64,000 nt of DNA from positions 1 through 64,000 of the forward strand of contig JARGGJ010000002.1 in assembly GCA_029210915.1 (NCBI GenBank). Direction: 5' to 3'. Position numbers and translations under genes: made by a program. Origin of the DNA: Patescibacteria group bacterium. GTDB lineage: Bacteria > Patescibacteriota > Patescibacteriia > 2-12-FULL-60-25. Every line of letters starts with the position of its first letter. Positions within the stretch are counted from its first letter, which is position 1. The notes beneath the pieces are model-generated. The model searched no databases and was not told where the DNA came from. It saw only the letters and a program-made list of their open reading frames with translations. Positions 1-53,860 of the stretch are shown in pieces.

Positions 1-840
1 CCCTACATAACCGACACAATCCGGCGCCTTTCAAAATCACTAGCCGACCTCACAATCCCATGGCAAATAATCATCGCCGATAATGGATCAACTGATCAAA
101 CTAAACAAACTATTCAAGAACTCATTCGTACATGGTCCTACGTACATGGTCCTGGCTATAGTCTTAGTAACCAGGACCATGTACCCAGGACCATGGACCA
201 ATCGGTTGGTTCAGTACCCAGGACCCAGGACCAATTAGTTTATTTAGAATGTCCCAAAGTCGGCAAAGGCTCAGCCATCCGCTTCGCCGCCGAACAAACC
301 CCCGACGACGCCTCCTCATCTCCACCACAGGCAGATCCGCCGCGAAATACGAAATTCGAAATACGAAATTCGAATCAAAATCAGTTCTTCGGTTTCATCG
401 ACGCCGACCTCTCCGCCGACCCCGATGCCATAGTGGGCATGGTTACCCGCTTGCTCGAAGACAAAGCCGACATTGTCATCGCCTCAAGACTCCTCATCAC
501 CAAAACAACCAACCGCAGTTGGCTCCGAACTCTAAGCTCCAAACTCTTCAACTTCCTCGCCGACCTCTTTTTAAATCTCAAAGTCGCGGACGCTCAATGC
601 GGGCTCAAGATTATGAATGAAAGGGGATTAAAGATCCTCCGTGAGTGCCAAGAAGACGGCTGGTTTTTAGATATTGAATTTTTAGCAAAAGCCAGGCAAG
701 ATAGGTTAAGGATAGCCGAGGTCCCCGTCCCATGGCTCGAATTCCGCTATCCCAACCGCAAAAGCCAAATCCACCATTTCCGAGATGGTATCGAAGCCAT
801 TAAAGCAATTTTGAGAATTTATAAGGACTTTCGTACCTAG
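1..840 (+). CDS. Family 2 glycosyltransferase (DPM1/DPG-synthase-like), 5' end outside the window
   Basis: The frame is open from base 1, so the gene starts upstream of the window. The visible part has the GT-A nucleotide-binding motif IIADNGSTDQT, then GKGSAIR, then the metal-binding FIDADLS, followed by VIASRL and an acceptor segment (DAQCGLKIM, DIEFLAKA), as in polyprenyl-phosphate glycosyltransferases. It probably moves a sugar from a nucleotide to a lipid phosphate at the inner membrane. Two stretches between conserved motifs (about 125-235 and 340-377) are made of the same repeat words as the intergenic elements and are read in frame without a stop. An internal ATG at 193 could be taken for the start, but the catalytic motif upstream argues against that. 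Confidence 0.85.
   Translation, partial: PYITDTIRRLSKSLADLTIPWQIIIADNGSTDQTKQTIQELIRTWSYVHGPGYSLSNQDHVPRTMDQSVGSVPRTQDQLVYLECPKVGKGSAIRFAAEQTPDDASSSPPQADPPRNTKFEIRNSNQNQFFGFIDADLSADPDAIVGMVTRLLEDKADIVIASRLLITKTTNRSWLRTLSSKLFNFLADLFLNLKVADAQCGLKIMNERGLKILRECQEDGWFLDIEFLAKARQDRLRIAEVPVPWLEFRYPNRKSQIHHFRDGIEAIKAILRIYKDFRT
125..235. repeat. Word-repeat hairpin, GGACCATGTAC type, inside a coding sequence
   Basis: GTACATGGTCCT occurs twice on the left and its complement AGGACCATGTAC follows, with further AGGACC copies. The same words appear between genes at 28919-28997 and 33775-33842. Here the element lies in frame in the glycosyltransferase. Confidence 0.85.
340..377. repeat. Tandem word repeat, GAAATACGAAATTC type, inside a coding sequence
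   Basis: Two copies of GAAATACGAAATTC in tandem are translated just before the DADLS motif. The vocabulary matches the TTCGAA-type array at 4826-5030. Confidence 0.75.
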
Positions 841-932
841 TACCTTGTACCTAGTACCTAGTACCTAGTACAAACTTATGTGATTTAATATTCTGTTGGT
901 ACTTAGTACTAAGTAGTAGGTATTAAGTATAT
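833..932. repeat. Word-repeat hairpin, GTACCTA type, left of the S23 gene
   Basis: The left arm has five to six copies of TAGTACC-like words (833-874). A short AT-rich loop and a right arm GGTACTTAGTACTAAGTAG (898-930) follow. It begins at the stop of the upstream gene. Confidence 0.85.
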
Positions 933-942
933 TAAAAGATAT

Positions 943-1293
943 ATGGGAATTGAGAAATTTGAGGATATTATTGCTTGGAAAAAAAGTCGGGTTATGGCTG
1001 GTAATATATATAGTGAATTTCGTAATTTACGTGACTATGGTTTTCGAGATCAAATTGAACGGTCAGCTGTTTCAACGATGAATAACATAGCGGAAGGCTT
1101 TGGTCGTCGAGGAAATCGTGAGTTTAAAAGATTTTTAAATATTGCATACGGATCTTGTTGCGAAGTGCAATCTATGCTTTACTTAGCCTTAGATCTTGGT
1201 TATATCAACAGTACTCGTTTTTCGGATCTGTTTAAACAAGCTAATGAATCAGCAAGACTGATAAGCGCCCTCACCCGCAGCATCTCCGAATGA
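943..1293 (+). CDS. Four-helix bundle protein of the S23 / 23S rRNA intervening-sequence family
   Basis: The 116-residue protein matches the S23/IVP family: FEDIIAWKKSR at the N terminus, then DQIERSAVSTMNNIAEGFGR, EFKRFLNIAYGS and CEVQSML. The length is normal for the family (about 115-125). Family knowledge: the first members were found in stem-loop intervening sequences inside 23S rRNA genes, and the molecular function is unknown. Here the gene lies between word-repeat arms of the same vocabulary on both sides (833-932 and 1328-1368), much like an IVS open reading frame in its stem-loop. No Shine-Dalgarno is visible. The base composition is more AT-rich than in the genes on either side. 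Confidence 0.9.
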   Translation: MGIEKFEDIIAWKKSRVMAGNIYSEFRNLRDYGFRDQIERSAVSTMNNIAEGFGRRGNREFKRFLNIAYGSCCEVQSMLYLALDLGYINSTRFSDLFKQANESARLISALTRSISE

Positions 1294-1327
1294 CCCCATC
1301 CTACTTAACCACCACGTACATCAAAAA

Positions 1328-1368
1328 GTACTAGGTACAAGGTACTAGGTACAAGGTACTTAAGTAGT
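1328..1368. repeat. Word-repeat arm, GTACTAGGTACAAG type, right of the S23 gene
   Basis: Two tandem copies of GTACTAGGTACAAG. The reverse complement shares GTACCTTGTACCTAGTACC with the arm at 833-874, so the S23 gene lies between inverted copies. Confidence 0.85.
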
Positions 1369-1376
1369 ACGAAATT

Positions 1377-16993: not shown

Positions 16994-17061
16994 GTATATC
17001 TAAGTTCAATCGTTTAGAATTAGTCAAATATTGGGTTTTTTGCTAAATTAAGATAAAGAAT

Positions 17062-18375
17062 ATGCTTCATCAACTCAAAAACCTGGTCCCGCAAGGCCTT
17101 AAAGATACCTATCATTTAATACTTTCATATATAGCGGCAATTTTGTATAGCCACCCCTCGCGCCGGCTAATCGTCATCGGAGTCACCGGCACAAACGGCA
17201 AAACCAGCACAGCCTATATGATTGCGAAAGCTCTTGAGGCGGGTGGTGCCAAAACCGGTTGTACCACAACCGCCATCTTCAAAGTCGCCGAAAAAGAATG
17301 GCTGAACAACACCAAGATGACCATGCTTGGCCGTTTTCAATTGCAAAAACTTTTACGAGAGATGGTGGACTCGGGTTGCACTTATGCTGTCATCGAGACT
17401 TCCTCCCAAGGCATAACCCAACATCGCCACAAAAACATCGCCTACGACATTGGGGTATTCACCAACCTCACACCCGAGCACATCGAAGCTCATGGCGGTT
17501 TCGAGAATTACAAACAAGCCAAAATCCAACTCTTTCGTCATATTGCCTCGCTCCCGCCTAAAATGCTGGGTGATAAACTCGTACCGCGCGCATCCGTTAT
17601 AAATTTTGACGATGAACACTCTGTCGACTTTAAAGTCGCAGGTTTGGAAAATGTCATCACCTACGGAGAAGGGGAGGGCGCGGAAGTTCACGCAACCAAC
17701 ATTACAGAAACAACCGGCGGAGCGTCTTTTGATGTTGATAATCATCAAATCAAACTTAACCTCTTAGGACGAGTAAATGTCTCAAATGCTCTCGCTTCGT
17801 TAGCCGTCGCTAAAGCTTGCGGAATGGATCTTGATTCGGCAGTCAAAAAACTGGAAACTATCAAAAACTTACCCGGCCGTTTCGAGCTTATCAATGAAGG
17901 TCAGCCTTACACGGTTATCGTCGATTACGCACCCGAGCCCGCATCTCTCTCAAAAATCTACGAAACAATCAATGCCTTAAATCCAAATCGCCTAATCCAC
18001 GTTCTAGGCTCATGCGGAGGCGGTCGTGATGTGGCTCGCCGGCCCATCCTTGGCAAAATGGCAGGTGAAACCGCGGACATCGTCATAGTCACCAACGAAG
18101 ATCCATACGATGATGATCCAATGCAAATAATCAACGACGTTGCAGAGGGCGCAAAAGAACAGGGAAAAATAGAAGGGCAAAATCTCTTTCTTATCGAAGA
18201 TCGCAAAGAGGCAATCGATAAAGCTATCGGCATCGCAGAACCCGGCGATATCGTCTTATTAACAGGTAAAGGCTCCGAGCAAGCCATCTGCATTGCCGGA
18301 GGCAAAAAAATTCCCTGGGACGAACGCGAAGTTGCCCGCGAAGCTATTAAAAACCATATTGCTAAACCAAGCTAA
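17062..18375 (+). CDS. MurE-like Mur ligase (UDP-N-acetylmuramyl-tripeptide synthetase)
   Basis: An ATP-dependent ligase that would add the third amino acid to the peptidoglycan precursor. It has the ATP loop GVTGTNGKTSTAYMI, GCTTTAIF, the ETSSQGITQHR region, GVFTNLTPEH and the carbamylated-lysine part GGFENYKQAK, then the Mur C-terminal domain with GSCGGGRDVARRP and VTNEDPYDDDP. In classical MurE this last position has DNPR (meso-DAP) or a related motif; the EDPYDDDP form here leaves the third residue open. At 437 residues it is shorter than E. coli MurE because the N-terminal domain is reduced. Confidence 0.88.
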   Translation: MLHQLKNLVPQGLKDTYHLILSYIAAILYSHPSRRLIVIGVTGTNGKTSTAYMIAKALEAGGAKTGCTTTAIFKVAEKEWLNNTKMTMLGRFQLQKLLREMVDSGCTYAVIETSSQGITQHRHKNIAYDIGVFTNLTPEHIEAHGGFENYKQAKIQLFRHIASLPPKMLGDKLVPRASVINFDDEHSVDFKVAGLENVITYGEGEGAEVHATNITETTGGASFDVDNHQIKLNLLGRVNVSNALASLAVAKACGMDLDSAVKKLETIKNLPGRFELINEGQPYTVIVDYAPEPASLSKIYETINALNPNRLIHVLGSCGGGRDVARRPILGKMAGETADIVIVTNEDPYDDDPMQIINDVAEGAKEQGKIEGQNLFLIEDRKEAIDKAIGIAEPGDIVLLTGKGSEQAICIAGGKKIPWDEREVAREAIKNHIAKPS

Positions 18376-34269: not shown

Positions 34270-34352
34270 GACAAAGTCTTAACGTCATAACGTCCTAAAG
34301 TCATAACGTAACAATCCAAAACCCGTTAAGACGTTACGACGTTAAGACTTGT
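34270..34352. repeat. Word-repeat hairpin, AACGTCATAACGTC type
   Basis: Left CTTAACGTCATAACGTCC, right CGTTAAGACGTTACGACG. It begins just after the stop of the glutaredoxin gene. Confidence 0.9.
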
Positions 34353-34576: not shown

Positions 34577-34767
34577 AGACGATTAAACTACAATCAAAAA
34601 AACGTCACGTATAACCTACGCGACGCTTTCTGTTTGTTGCGGGTTCATGAATTTTACAAAATTCTGCGTTGCTGTCTGTGTTTTTTCTCTACGTACATGA
34701 ACACGTTTCGTAAAACGCTTGATCGCGCCTTGATCTTAACTCACATTCATAAACCCTCCGCTCTAGA

Positions 34768-34800
34768 ATCTAGTACTTAGTACTTAGTACTTAGTACGAT
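34768..34800. repeat. Tandem word repeat, TAGTACT type
   Basis: Four to five CTTAGTA units run up to the 3' end of the ahpC gene. Confidence 0.8.
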
Positions 34801-43667: not shown

Positions 43668-43814
43668 ATATCACCTCCATGTAAGGATTTCTCCTGTTAA
43701 AGTGCAATGTTTGGCACAGCATTAAAAAACCGCACCGCGCCAAGGTTAGCATGCTTGCAAGCCTTGTAAAACACCGCCAATGGACAGGTTTCTTCAACTC
43801 TTCTAAGCTAAGTT

Positions 43815-43932
43815 GTAACGTCATAACTTCCTAATGTCATAACGTACAAACCCATCCAATCCCGTTACGACGTTATGACGTTAAGACTTTAATGCGTTAC
43901 GACGTTACGACGTTATGACGTTAAGACTAATT
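43815..43932. repeat. Word-repeat hairpin, AACGTCATAAC type
   Basis: Left GTAACGTCATAACTTCC and ATGTCATAACGTAC; right CGTTACGACGTTATGACG and further copies. It leads straight into the next start codon. Confidence 0.9.
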
Positions 43933-43939
43933 TTATATT

Positions 43940-48815: not shown

Positions 48816-50627
48816 ATGTCTCAACAATCAATCCGAAATTTCTGCATCATTGCCCACATAGATCACGGCAAATCCACACTCGCGGACCGTCTTTTGGAAG
48901 TTACGGGAACTATCGAGAAGCGTAAAATGAAAGAGCAATTATTGGATACCATGGATTTAGAGCGCGAGCGCGGTATTACCATCAAACTTCAACCGGCCCG
49001 CATGTCATACAAGTCCAAAGCCGGCGAAGAGTTTCAACTTAACCTCATCGACACTCCGGGGCACGTTGATTTTACCTACGAAGTCTCACGCTCACTCGCA
49101 GCCGTCGAAGGCGCAATCTTGCTCGTCGATTCCACTCAAGGTGTGCAAGCACAAACAATCGCCAACCTCTACCTCGCAATCGAGCAAAACCTCGCAATCA
49201 TTCCGGTTCTCAACAAAACAGACCTACCCAACTCGGAAGTCGAGCGCCGTGCTGAAGAACTTATTAAGCTCATTGGTTGTAAACGCGAAGAGATTTTGTC
49301 CGTATCCGCCAAAACCGGAGTCGGCGTTCCCGAAATTCTCGAAAGAGTTGTAACCGAAGTTCCACCTCCACAGGGTAAAAAAGATGATCCTTTCCGTGCT
49401 GTTATCTTTGATTCCAAATACGATGAGTTTAAGGGAGTTGTTGCCTATGTTCGAGTCGTCGATGGTGAATTGCAAAAAAACGAAGATGTCCACTTTATGG
49501 CTACAGGCCACTCGGGCGAAGCTTTGGAAATCGGTTCTCTAAAGCCGGCGTACTCACCGCAAGATTCTTTAAAGACAGGGGAGATTGGCTACATAGTCAC
49601 CGGTTTAAAAGATATCGAAGCCGTCCGAGTCGGTGATACTGTGGTGTCTGATAAAGAAAAGCTGAATAAAGAAATCAAACCATTACCGGGTTACAAAGAA
49701 GTACGCCCAATGGTTTACGCCGGCATCTTCCCATCCGAAGGCAATGAGTATGTTCGCCTTCGTGAGTCTTTGCTTAAACTCAAACTTTCCGACGCATCCC
49801 TTCAGTTCGATCCCGAGCACTCAACCGCTTTAGGCTTTGGATTTCGTTGCGGATTTTTGGGCATTCTCCATCTCGAGATAATTAAAGAACGCTTGGAGCG
49901 CGAGCATAACATGGAGATTATCACCACAACTCCATCGGTTGCCTACGAAGTTACTTTAACCAGCAATGAAGAAAAGGTTATCAAATCACCCTTGGAATAC
50001 CCGGATTCCTCACGTTTAAAAGAAGCTCGTGAGCCTTGGGTTACAGTCGATATCGTTACGCCAACCGATTACCTGGGGGCAATAATGTCGCTCGTCTCCG
50101 ACCGCCGTGGTGTTTACAAAAACACCGAATATTTCGAAACCACACGCGCTGTTTTGCACTACGATATGCCGCTCTCATCGGTTATCGTTGATTTTCATGA
50201 TAAACTAAAAAGCGCCACAGCCGGTTACGCATCTTTAAGTTACGAATTTTTGGAGTATCGCCCTGCCAAAATCGTCCGTCTCGACATCTTGGTAGCCGAA
50301 GAAGTTGTAGCCGCGCTCGCAACCCTCATCCACGAATCCGAAGCCTACCATCATGGTCGCTACGTAGTTGAAACTCTTAAAGAATCATTGCCGCGTCAGA
50401 TGTTTGTTGTTAAAATTCAAGCATCTGTTGGCGCCAAAGTCATCGCCTCCGAAAAACTCTCCGCTTACCGTAAAGATGTCCTTGCCAAACTCTACGGTGG
50501 CGACCGCACCCGCAAAGACAAGCTCTTAAAGAAACAGAAAAAAGGTAAAGAGCGTATGTTAAGCCAAGGTAAAGGCAGAGTCGAAATCCCCTCCGAGACA
50601 TTTATTAAAGTTCTTCGCCGAAACTAG
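48816..50627 (+). CDS. lepA: Elongation factor 4 (LepA)
   Basis: A ribosome-dependent GTPase of 603 residues. G1 is AHIDHGKST, the G2 region has RERGITIKLQ, G3 DTPGHVDF and G4 NKTDLP. The LepA-specific C-terminal domain is present (KKGKERMLSQGKGRVEIPSE to the end). It is thought to act in translation under stress or in ribosome assembly. The start codon lies at the end of a word repeat, and no Shine-Dalgarno is visible. Confidence 0.97.
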   Translation: MSQQSIRNFCIIAHIDHGKSTLADRLLEVTGTIEKRKMKEQLLDTMDLERERGITIKLQPARMSYKSKAGEEFQLNLIDTPGHVDFTYEVSRSLAAVEGAILLVDSTQGVQAQTIANLYLAIEQNLAIIPVLNKTDLPNSEVERRAEELIKLIGCKREEILSVSAKTGVGVPEILERVVTEVPPPQGKKDDPFRAVIFDSKYDEFKGVVAYVRVVDGELQKNEDVHFMATGHSGEALEIGSLKPAYSPQDSLKTGEIGYIVTGLKDIEAVRVGDTVVSDKEKLNKEIKPLPGYKEVRPMVYAGIFPSEGNEYVRLRESLLKLKLSDASLQFDPEHSTALGFGFRCGFLGILHLEIIKERLEREHNMEIITTTPSVAYEVTLTSNEEKVIKSPLEYPDSSRLKEAREPWVTVDIVTPTDYLGAIMSLVSDRRGVYKNTEYFETTRAVLHYDMPLSSVIVDFHDKLKSATAGYASLSYEFLEYRPAKIVRLDILVAEEVVAALATLIHESEAYHHGRYVVETLKESLPRQMFVVKIQASVGAKVIASEKLSAYRKDVLAKLYGGDRTRKDKLLKKQKKGKERMLSQGKGRVEIPSETFIKVLRRN

Positions 50628-50664
50628 ACCTTGATTCGCTCGATTTACATGATTAGCTTGATTA
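50628..50664. repeat. Left inverted repeat of the GxxExxY element
   Basis: CCTTGATT, an 11-nt middle, GATTAGC and GATTAT. The reverse complement is found at 51034-51071, with the two ends matching almost base for base. Confidence 0.88.
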
Positions 50665-50665
50665 T

Positions 50666-51037
50666 ATGTCGCATGAGGATATAACTCATAAAATTATCGG
50701 ATGTGCAATGAGTGTACATCGGGAACTTGGTAATGGTTTTCCGGAAGTTGTATATCAAAGAGCTTTAGCAATTGAATTGATGTTGCAAGATATAAAATTT
50801 GAAAAAGAAAAAATCCTACCGTTAATATACAAAAACTACAAAGTAGGATCAAGAAGAGTAGACTTCTTTGTTGAAAAAGCAATAATGGTTGAATTAAAAG
50901 CTTTAACTCATTTGGAGGATGTGCATTTGGCTCAAGCATTTAATTATTTAGAGGCATACAAGATGGAGGTTGGTTTATTAATAAATTTCGGTGGTAAAAG
51001 TCTTGAATTTAAAAGAGTACACAAAAAACTCAGATAA
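50666..51037 (+). CDS. GxxExxY protein, PD-(D/E)XK nuclease-like
   Basis: The 123 residues carry the name-giving motif GNGFPEVVYQRAL and, further on, RRVDFFVEKAIMVELKAL, which fits the D-(x)n-ExK centre of the PD-(D/E)XK nuclease superfamily. The ending INFGGKSLEFKRV is family-typical. Function is unknown for this family. The gene fills the space between inverted repeats of about 38 nt: the ATG directly follows the left one and the stop codon is part of the right one. This arrangement suggests that gene and repeats move as one unit. Confidence 0.88.
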   Translation: MSHEDITHKIIGCAMSVHRELGNGFPEVVYQRALAIELMLQDIKFEKEKILPLIYKNYKVGSRRVDFFVEKAIMVELKALTHLEDVHLAQAFNYLEAYKMEVGLLINFGGKSLEFKRVHKKLR

Positions 51038-51071
51038 TCATGCTAATCAATTAATCAAGTTAATCAAGGTT
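51034..51071. repeat. Right inverted repeat of the GxxExxY element
   Basis: ATAATCATGCTAATCA then AATCAAGTTAATCAAGG. It includes the stop codon of the gene. The same words form the empty hairpin at 10395-10509. Confidence 0.88.
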
Positions 51072-51072
51072 T

Positions 51073-51171
51073 ATGAAGCCCAAGACTAAGAAAAAACTTT
51101 GGAAAGCATTCGTCACGGCCATAATCGTGCTCATGATAATCGCACTGGTTTCACCGTTGATGTTTTTCTAA
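51073..51171 (+). CDS. Single-helix membrane micro-protein (32 residues)
   Basis: MKPKTKKKLWKAFVTAIIVL is a basic start followed by a hydrophobic run (AFVTAIIVLMIIALVSPLMFF). I have seen such short Lys-then-helix proteins beside other CPR genes, but cannot name a family. It begins right after the right repeat of the GxxExxY element and ends before another word repeat. The positive-inside pattern favours a real gene. Confidence 0.55.
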   Translation: MKPKTKKKLWKAFVTAIIVLMIIALVSPLMFF

Positions 51172-51174
51172 TAC

Positions 51175-51260
51175 CAGTCGTAACGTCTTAACGTCATAAA
51201 GTCCTAACGTACATACCTCAACCACCCCCGTTAAGACGTTATGACGTTAAGATTTGTGCC
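51175..51260. repeat. Word-repeat hairpin, AACGTCATAAAGTCC type
   Basis: Left GTAACGTCTTAACGTCATAA, right CGTTAAGACGTTATGACG. Confidence 0.9.
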
Positions 51261-51315: not shown

Positions 51316-53136
51316 ATGCAGAAGCACTGGCAAATTATTGATGATTCAGGGGATAATGATACTGATCCAAGCATAAGTAATTTACATCCCGTAGCCATAA
51401 GAATGCTAAAGAGGCGCGGGTTAAATACAGCCGAAGAGATCGATCATTTTTTAAATCCCGATTGGGAGCGTGATGTTCACGACCCGTTTTTATTTACCCA
51501 AATGCAACAAGCGGTGGATCGGATCTTTGATGCAATCGAACGTGCTGAACACGTGGTAATCCACGGAGACTACGACGCCGACGGTGTAACCGGCTCAGTA
51601 GTCCTCGCCTCAACTCTGCAAATGCTCGCTGGTGCAAATTCGAAGCCAGGACCAAGTACCGAGGACTATGTACCAGGAGATGATTCTTCCAAATTCCTCA
51701 ACGTCCTCCCGCTAACCGACACAGCGCTATCGCTGGATATCTACATCCCGCACCGCGAGCGCGAGGGTTACGGATTAAACATGGCAACCGTCGATCGCAT
51801 CGCAGAACGAGGCACGCATCTTCTTATCACGGTAGATTGCGGTGTAGCGAACGCCGGGGAGATCGACGTGCTCAAAGAAAAGGGGATAGATACGATAGTT
51901 GTCGACCATCATCAATTTAACGATAAAATACCGGATGCAATTTGTATCCACCCCAGCTTACCCGAGGAAACGTATCCTTTTAAAAATCTCGCCGCGGTTG
52001 GTGTGGCCTGGAAGGTTGCTCACGCACTCATTATCGAAGCAAGGAAAAGGGGAGTGGAAATCCCGGCCGGTTATGAAAAATGGCTTTTGGATTTAGTCTC
52101 AATCGCAACAGTCACAGATATCGTCCCGCTTGTCGGCGAAAACCGCACACTCGAAGTCTACGGCTTAAAAGTACTAAACAAACTGCGCCGGCCCGGGTTT
52201 CGTGCTTTGGTTAATATTGCCAACTGGAAAAAGGGTGAGTTAGATTCAGAATCTGTCGGTTTTGTGCTTGGGCCGCGCATCAACGCAGCCGGGCGCATGG
52301 AGCATGCTTTTTTGGCTGTAGATCTTCTCTTGGAGCAAAATGAAAGTCGCGCCGCGTTAAAAGCCGCAAATCTGGAGGCTGTAAACAAATCTCGTCAAAA
52401 AGCTACCGAAATACTAATGAAAGAAGCGGAGCATTTCACTAAAACTCAAGATCAATACTCACTAATATTCGCTTGGTCCGAGAATTGGTCGCCATCGTTG
52501 GTTGGCCTTGCCGCCGGCAGATATACCGATAAATTCGGAAAACCCGCCGTTTTTGTTGGAAAACATGATGGTGTATGGATTGGTTCCGGGCGCTCTATTT
52601 TTGGCTATAATATTACCGAAGCTTTACATGAAGTTGGCGGCAATTTACTAACTCGCTTTGGCGGCCACGCGCAAGCCTGCGGATTCAGCCTGGACTCTGA
52701 TGAAAATGTTCGCCTTTTTGCGGATGTAATGCGCAATCACGCCGCCGAATTCTTAAGAGAGCAAGAATTAAAACCCATTTTAAAAATTGAAACTCAAATT
52801 GAACTTAAAGATCTGACCATGGAATTTTTAGAAACCTTAAATCGCTTCGAGCCTTTTGGCGAGTCGAATCCCAAACCCATATTCATGACAGCAAATTTAA
52901 CGGTTTTGGAATCCTCCATGGTTGGTGCTACCCAGAATCATGTTCGAGCTTTGGTGCAAGATAAATTCGGCAAACGTCAAAAAGTCATCGGTTTTTACAA
53001 AGCCGACCTAAAAGATATCTTTAACCCGGGCAACCAAATCGATATTGTCTACGACATCAGCAAATCCGAATGGAACGGCCGTACCGAAATCCAATGCAAA
53101 CTCATAGACGCGCGTAAGACATTAAATAACAAATAA
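51316..53136 (+). CDS. recJ: Single-stranded-DNA exonuclease RecJ
   Basis: A 5'-3' exonuclease of recombination and repair. The DHH motifs are GDYDADGVTGSVV, VDCGVANAGE, VVDHHQFND, and the DHHA1 part has GRINAAGRMEHAFLA-type and WSENWSPSLVGLAAGR, then GRSIFGYNITEAL and GGHAQACGFSL. Between motif I and LDIYIPHREREGYG about 30 extra residues (SKPGPSTEDYVPGDDSS) are encoded in frame by GGACCATGTAC-type words. All catalytic residues are intact, so the protein is probably active. 606 residues. Confidence 0.94.
   Translation: MQKHWQIIDDSGDNDTDPSISNLHPVAIRMLKRRGLNTAEEIDHFLNPDWERDVHDPFLFTQMQQAVDRIFDAIERAEHVVIHGDYDADGVTGSVVLASTLQMLAGANSKPGPSTEDYVPGDDSSKFLNVLPLTDTALSLDIYIPHREREGYGLNMATVDRIAERGTHLLITVDCGVANAGEIDVLKEKGIDTIVVDHHQFNDKIPDAICIHPSLPEETYPFKNLAAVGVAWKVAHALIIEARKRGVEIPAGYEKWLLDLVSIATVTDIVPLVGENRTLEVYGLKVLNKLRRPGFRALVNIANWKKGELDSESVGFVLGPRINAAGRMEHAFLAVDLLLEQNESRAALKAANLEAVNKSRQKATEILMKEAEHFTKTQDQYSLIFAWSENWSPSLVGLAAGRYTDKFGKPAVFVGKHDGVWIGSGRSIFGYNITEALHEVGGNLLTRFGGHAQACGFSLDSDENVRLFADVMRNHAAEFLREQELKPILKIETQIELKDLTMEFLETLNRFEPFGESNPKPIFMTANLTVLESSMVGATQNHVRALVQDKFGKRQKVIGFYKADLKDIFNPGNQIDIVYDISKSEWNGRTEIQCKLIDARKTLNNK
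51638..51690. repeat. Word repeat, CCAGGACCAAGTACC type, inside recJ
   Basis: CCAGGACCAAGTACCGAGGAC and TATGTACCAGG, the same words as the intergenic hairpins at 28919 and 33775, read in frame. Confidence 0.82.
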
Positions 53137-53255
53137 TAAATAACAAAGCGACACAATTAATTAAAAAATTACAAATAACAAATAACAAAGCGAGCGGATG
53201 GGATTTACTTTATTATTTATTATTTATTATTTATTATTTTGCGTAGCGATAGCGA
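53122..53255. repeat. Word-repeat hairpin, AAATAACAAATAATAA type
   Basis: Left AATAACAAATAATAAATAAC and AAATAACAAAGCGA; right four TTATTATTTA units, with GCG at both inner and outer ends. Confidence 0.9.
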
Positions 53256-53264
53256 AGCATAAGT

Positions 53265-53672
53265 ATGAACCTACAGATCTACACAGATGGCGGTGCCCGC
53301 GGAAATCCCGGGCCGGCAGGTATCGGAGTCGCCATAATCGACAAAGCAACCGGCGAAACTATCGCTGAAATCTCACAATATCTTGGTGAAACCACTAATA
53401 ATCAAGCGGAATATCAAGCCGCAATCGCCGGGCTCACCCGTGCTGTTGAGCTTGGTGCCAAATCCGTAGAAATAGTTGCCGATTCCGAGCTTTTGGTTCG
53501 CCAATGCCGCGGCCAATATAAAGTCAAAAACGCAGATCTCGCCAAGCGATTTTTAGAAGTCAAAAACTTAGAGACTCAACTCGGCGGACGTGTCACATAC
53601 ACCCACGTCAAACGCGAACTAAACAAACAAGCAGACGCACTCGCAAACCGCGCTATGGACGCTAAAAAATAA
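53265..53672 (+). CDS. rnhA: Ribonuclease HI
   Basis: It removes the RNA strand of RNA-DNA hybrids. The acidic catalytic set is seen in YTDGGARGNPG (Asp), NNQAEYQAAI (Glu), VADSELLVRQ (Asp) and KQADALANRA (Asp). Its 135 residues make a compact form lacking the basic extension of some homologues, close to the plant/archaeal-like type common in small genomes. It lies after recJ, with a word repeat between. Confidence 0.94.
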   Translation: MNLQIYTDGGARGNPGPAGIGVAIIDKATGETIAEISQYLGETTNNQAEYQAAIAGLTRAVELGAKSVEIVADSELLVRQCRGQYKVKNADLAKRFLEVKNLETQLGGRVTYTHVKRELNKQADALANRAMDAKK

Positions 53673-53697
53673 CCAATCACCCATGAAGCACTAAGTA

Positions 53698-53860
53698 TTA
53701 GTTTATAAAGTTCATAAAGTTCATAAAGTGTATAAAACGAACCAACTCAGTAACTACTTTACAAACTTTACAAACTTTACAAACTGCATCTTTAGTTATT
53801 AGTTTGTTGATTATTTATTGATGATTGGAGCTTGGGTATTGGTTATTGATGGCTATTAAG
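53698..53860. repeat. Word-repeat hairpin, AAGTTCATAAAG type, followed by GGTTATTG words
   Basis: Left AAAGTTCATAAAGTTCATAA, right TTTACAAACTTTACAAAC. 53800-53855 has TTGATGATTGGAGCTTGGGT words. Confidence 0.88.

Follow-up and report, generated by a model that had tools for sequence, protein, structure and literature searches.

In a window of 64,000 nucleotides from a patescibacterial genome (called G000 below; 1.455 Mb, 98% complete), nucleotides 829 to 1376, approximately, probably form one element, in which a gene for an S23/IVP protein has a tandem array of a heptamer word on one side and the inverted array on the other. Most likely, the S23 protein and this word are cognate partners. The association between S23 genes and inverted word arms is in itself near certain, and the layout is far more general than the window alone.

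The S23/IVP four-helix-bundle gene occupies positions 943..1293 of the forward strand, to which all window features below also refer, and encodes 116 aa. A preliminary description of the window had assigned it to this family, and the product indeed passes the curated profile cut-offs for membership, with 111.3 bits for PF05635 (Pfam cut-off 33.8) and 104.9 bits for TIGR02436 (NCBIfam cut-off 24). The inverted-repeat and word search placed the first arm of the inverted pair at 833..871, as an array of words GTACCTA, GTACCTT, GTACCTA and so on, in which a TAG serves as stop codon of the upstream GT2 glycosyltransferase gene. Left arms had been proposed up to position 932; the strong arm ends at 871, and the remainder is merely a degenerate set of extra word copies at 899..923 (GTACTTAGTACTAAGTAGTAGGTAT). 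To the right of the gene, the left arm is found inverted at 1328..1360, followed by the outer end of the right arm at 1361..1376 (..GTAGTACGAAATT), which pairs with ..TTTCGTAC at 829-836. For the inverted right arm, previously drawn at 1328-1368, the search gave a 33-nt pair, 839-871 with 1328-1360, that is 97% complementary and is contained in a wider pair of 49 nt (816-864 with 1328-1376, 80%). As initially noticed, the two arms share GTACCTTGTACCTAGTACC, which the right one carries in inverted form. The 12-mer GTACCTAGTACC, with at most 1 mismatch, has 10 matches in the window where 0.04 are expected, and 9 of the 10 fall within the two arms.

The element is bordered by two protein genes, as had been pointed out: the GT2 gene upstream and a sugar-transferase gene downstream. 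In rRNA intervening sequences (IVS) carrying an S23 ORF, as in Coxiella and Leptospira, the same protein family is encoded within a stem of inverted arms, and the window element has this layout as well, its S23 ORF lying between complementary, stem-forming arms. Membership of the rRNA IVS was nevertheless rejected: no rRNA is nearby, protein genes are on both sides, and a comparison of all 15 S23 loci of the genome with Rfam gave no family at or above its gathering score, which means that the element is not an rRNA insertion. It also differs from the rRNA IVS, which have been called selfish (PMC4990558), in that the sites are junctions of protein genes, the arms are heptamer-word arrays, and many gene-less cognate copies exist.

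The likeness to IVS leads to a reading at the RNA level, in which RNase III cuts the stem, or S23 binds it and protects the interrupted transcript, so that the element persists as a harmless insertion. In rRNA, inserts with this protein family and this stem layout are excised by RNase III (PMC4990558). When the window element is folded as RNA, its two arms are predicted to pair with each other and enclose the gene (−164.9 kcal/mol, z −5.85), and elements are located inside operons, which also suits this reading. Processing alone, however, leaves unexplained both the spread of gene-less hairpins of the cognate word and the scarcity of arrays in S23-free genomes (see below), and we regard it as a quite improbable account of the system. 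RNA-level action could still come in addition to a partnership at the DNA level.

The generality of the layout was measured with an arm score, defined as the complementarity of the two 250-nt flanks of a gene. For the genome scan, the narrower S23 alignment was used, as the broader one was too divergent. Of the 15 PF05635 matches in the genome of the window, 12 have flanking inverted repeats that score above the 99th percentile, and 14 are visibly enclosed by arms, either inverted word arrays or inverted repeats, nearly each with its own word; the fifteenth match is marginal (33.8 bits) and lies within a longer ORF. In 29 relatives, 67 of 82 S23 matches scored above the 99th percentile of the controls, where about 1 was expected; these controls were 1958 tiled positions, all from the genome of the window. 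With controls taken from the same loci, 38 of 52 S23 genes from a wider set of Patescibacteria and unnamed bacteria, and 21 of 28 from other phyla, exceeded the 99th percentile, and 22 of 29 did so in Geobacteraceae. On plasmids, mostly cyanobacterial, arms were present at 8 of 10 S23 genes, one being borderline. Among other small ORFs, the same score level was reached by 8 of 158 and 7 of 282 (2.5-5%), and the 8 include the S23 gene of the window and two GxxExxY genes, a family treated below. The expectation that inverted words flank S23 genes more often than other genes is therefore borne out in an adapted form of the comparison, at 67/82 against about 1% of tiled positions and these 2.5-5% of small ORFs. 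A chance or low-complexity origin of the arms was rejected by the tiled, local and ORF controls.

Some family members depart from this picture. Seven loci (L012, L042, L043, L050, L051, L053 and L059) form an orthologous S23 group of the genus, with short conserved inverted repeats that are not words (..AGCGCGCAA..) and no word arrays; this group is perhaps a domesticated class. Three S23 genes (L029, L035, L066) have neither arms nor a reverse transcriptase (RT) neighbour. L015 and several of the Geobacteraceae matches are weak PF05635 hits in ORFs of about 160-300 aa, mainly covering profile positions 8-73, and look like a different protein family. On the plasmids, several S23 elements are found between operon neighbours, namely ribonucleotide reductase subunits, cas6 and cas4, or cas10 and cmr3. 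The last two cases are L174 and L179, on cyanobacterial plasmids. Such insertions among cas genes could make IVP, which is named in a legend of PMC10910872, appear CRISPR-associated.

The arms have a clear period. Their self-match averages 0.50 and 0.58 at lag 7 and 0.47 and 0.54 at lag 14, against 0.22-0.32 at other lags, and lag 7 is the best lag in 50 of 70 and 45 of 59 elements. The heptamer is not one fixed repeat, as nearly every element carries its own. Similarity between arms read on the coding strand climbs with S23 protein identity, from 0.21 to 0.56, whereas no rise is seen on the opposite strand; the Mantel correlation of protein identity with same-strand arm similarity is 0.33, for a permuted maximum of 0.09. 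Close S23 paralogues have their word in common. Because arm similarity tracks protein identity on one strand and close paralogues share a word, we conclude that the protein is co-inherited with its word and with the strand of that word.

Gene-less arrays are abundant in the DNA sampled from S23 genomes. In 304 kb sampled from the genome of the window, 100 arrays were counted, 4 of which are near an S23 gene. A gene-less array of the window, at 34762..34797, is of the word type of the window element (TAGTACT), and corresponds to the empty element pointed out earlier at 34768-34800. When each of 163 loose arrays was compared with 72 S23 arms, the best arm came from the same genome for 78.5 of them, where permutation gave a mean of 23.8 and never more than 63.5; for about half of them, an arm from another genome was the better match. 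Loose arrays whose inverse partner is at most 250 nt away have the order found in S23 elements in 44 cases and the reversed order in 1, the cases not being fully independent since both arms of a hairpin may count. Three further hairpins of the window, at 34273-34350, 43804-43935 and 51177-51252, are made of AACGTCAT-type words with period 8; within the genome they best match the S23 element L003, of period 9, and only weakly.

Array density goes with the presence of S23. Eight genomes with S23 have 23.0, 8, 9, 18, 6.7, 7.8, 16.2 and 4.7 period-7 arrays per 100 kb, compared to 0 in seven of nine S23-free genomes and 3.8 (2 arrays) and 1.7 (1 array) in the others (Mann-Whitney p 2e-4, without phylogenetic correction). 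Within the genus of the window, the two S23-free species have the two lowest densities among the species sampled. Arrays of neighbouring periods are few, except for period 9 and, in G000 and G026, period 8. In Geobacteraceae, where densities were sampled in S23-free genomes only, values of 0 (G065) and 1.2 (G078) per 100 kb were found, and a 17-kb sample of G074 contained one array. A few arrays are thus present where no S23 was detected: two in G002, one in G020, two in G078 and one in G074. Hairpins spreading alongside armless S23 genes would have spoken against a role of the protein; instead, all array-rich genomes sampled have S23, and in the S23-free relatives period-7 arrays are rare or absent.

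Empty sites in close relatives, which had been suggested as a check, do exist. In G001, a member of the same genus, 2 nt separate the stop codon of GT2 from the start codon of the sugar-transferase gene, so that the site of the window element is empty there. Between gatC and gatA, G000 and G004 have S23 elements with different words and G008 has a GxxExxY gene flanked by arms of its own, while gatC and gatA almost abut in G001, G002, G003, G005 and G007. Empty sites were seen at the genus level only, with no movement seen within a species. Filled and empty sites are too divergent for a target-site duplication to be read, and element termini drift with the word. Words have also entered coding sequence: in the GT2 gene, a word hairpin at 119..233 (GTACATGGTCC, the word of S23 element L007) and a word array at 341..375 (CGAAATACGAAATTCG, the word of L001) are both in frame, and the GT2 homologues, including that of the same genus, have neither. 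The palindromic elements of Rickettsia, which are palindromic repeats lying in frame within protein genes, are comparable by description only; we know of no S23 or word arrays in them.

Which activity could act on the hairpins? Residues Q37, R40, S44, N48, E51 and E74 are strongly conserved in armed S23 proteins (0.97, 0.95, 0.98, 0.95, 0.98 and 1.00, respectively), and this conservation suggests that they make up the working site of the armed class. The S23-family structures that have been solved, 2gsc and 2rld, were entered as uncharacterised proteins, and to our knowledge no enzymatic activity has been attributed to the family. In relatives, five armless S23-family genes adjoin RT genes and are Avd proteins of diversity-generating retroelements (DGRs); they lack the set of six residues, save for one E aligned at 51. 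Avd shares the PF05635 fold family and resembles S23 in sequence and structure (PMC10053308), but it differs in being RT-adjacent, devoid of word arms, and without nearly all of these residues.

A retro-mobile spread, with S23 acting together with an RT in the manner of Avd, would find its basis in this resemblance and in the Avd-like members next to RTs. However, the RT profile PF00078 was not found in G000, G005 or G007, and G000 has the highest array density though no RT was found there; the window element has no adjacent RT. The Avd members, moreover, are those without word arms and without the residues conserved in armed S23. An RT partner was accordingly rejected for G000, and we give this reading very little credence, as it is largely refuted by array-rich genomes with no detectable RT. 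The RAYT/Y1 transposase was also rejected as the spreading enzyme: PF01797 was not found in G000 nor in several array-rich genomes, yet it is present in the S23-free G018 and G020. With neither PF00078 nor PF01797 found in the genome of the window, copying by an RT or a RAYT is unlikely in that cell.

By analogy, the S23 element would work most like REPIN/RAYT, in which a mostly distinct single-copy gene lies between its own repeats and many gene-less inverted doublets are dispersed genome-wide (PMC3116915). The same is true of the S23 system of the window: the gene lies between repeats of a family that is its own, and inverted copies devoid of the gene are present at other places in the genome. 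It is not a REPIN/RAYT member, because the protein, a four-helix bundle, is not a Y1 HUH transposase, and its repeats are drifting 7-nt word arrays whereas the REPIN is a fixed palindrome. The reading that we favour, and hold to be somewhat more credible than its negation, is a RAYT/REPIN-like partnership with S23 as a non-transposase protein. S23 would recognise the hairpin into which the word arrays fold, whether in single-stranded DNA or in a DNA cruciform and possibly in RNA too, and would promote the spread or upkeep of the word hairpin at the DNA level. Gene-less hairpins of the cognate word would then spread or persist through S23, as REPINs do with RAYT. Binding to the words, the DNA-level step and mobilisation of the hairpins by S23 are what we infer from the nesting, the period of 7, the co-inheritance, the same-polarity gene-less hairpins, the co-occurrence, the empty sites and the lack of RT or Y1 detected in G000. 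Counting against this reading are the few arrays in genomes with no detected S23, the loose arrays that better match arms from elsewhere, the S23 genes with neither arms nor an RT neighbour, the orthologous group with non-word repeats, the solved structures with no known activity, and the fact that neither movement within a species nor a target-site duplication was seen. The early proposal, which saw in S23 a candidate partner of the hairpins in their mobility or processing, is supported by arms, empty sites and array co-occurrence.

S23 might instead be a passenger or a co-selected gene that merely rides in some of the hairpins, these arising and spreading by host replication (slippage, or template switching between arms) or by another enzyme. 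Slippage can lengthen tandem words, a catalytic role of S23 is not known, most S23 copies within one genome are diverged from each other, and similar layouts exist around other gene families. A passenger, however, need not predict array density, word identity with arms of the same genome, or co-inheritance of word and strand with the protein, nor the polar residues conserved specifically in armed S23, and we consider this alternative unlikely.

Other gene families do pair with hairpins. Genes of the GxxExxY family (PF13366, PD-(D/E)XK nuclease fold) are found between arms of other words, mostly of period 8-10 (...CTTGATTA..., CACAGAG/CACAAAG types). Their arms score 20 or more in all 16 cases testable in relatives, and 18 of 22 exceed the 99th percentile in other phyla. 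The window has one at 50627-51073, where a GxxExxY gene (50666-51037) stands between inverted CTTGATTA-word arms, protein and word both being other than in the S23 element. As sole driver of the arrays GxxExxY was rejected, since PF13366 was not found in G001, G005, G006 and G014, which are array-rich; S23 thus does not need it. In relatives, DUF559 (PF04480) genes (L403-L422) are mostly flanked by inverted CCCTC..GAGGG-type palindromes, a third protein-hairpin pairing, with 14 of 18 flanks scoring 18 or more (no separate control set). At L086, a gene that by eye looks of PemK/MazF type lies between inverted CTTGAGAATCTATGAATCTAAGC arms (17053-17743). Finally, at 53132-53848 of the window, an RNase H-like gene (53265-53672) is placed between unlike word arrays, of AATAACAAATA and CAATAACC types, which are probably separate insertions.

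Intergenic heptamer repeats have been described before: TAACTGA in Beggiatoaceae and cyanobacteria, GGGAATC in Xanthomonas, and the heptamers of Nostoc. They too are tandem 7-nt words, often in inverted pairs in Xanthomonas (PMC4679880, PMC4692102), and S23 is not mentioned in either article; here, by contrast, every S23 gene is tied to its own word. Among the open-licence papers searched, we found no report joining S23 to word repeats. S23 (PF05635), a widespread family with no assigned function, is now linked by statistics in several phyla to heptamer repeats, which are reported from several phyla and had no explanation so far. This link offers an explanation for the heptamer-word arrays of Patescibacteria and cyanobacteria, and may explain the IVP genes inside cas and other conserved operons. 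We see an even chance that S23 and, in parallel, GxxExxY and DUF559 proteins, each paired with its cognate family of drifting words or palindromes, spread gene-less hairpins as a widespread undescribed mobile class. If this is true for S23, it would account for bacterial heptamer repeats and for the function of S23/IVP, and the Q-R-S-N-E-E cluster would be a novel site of activity or recognition. RAYT/REPIN would exemplify a general strategy if other families of small nuclease-fold proteins share the layout.
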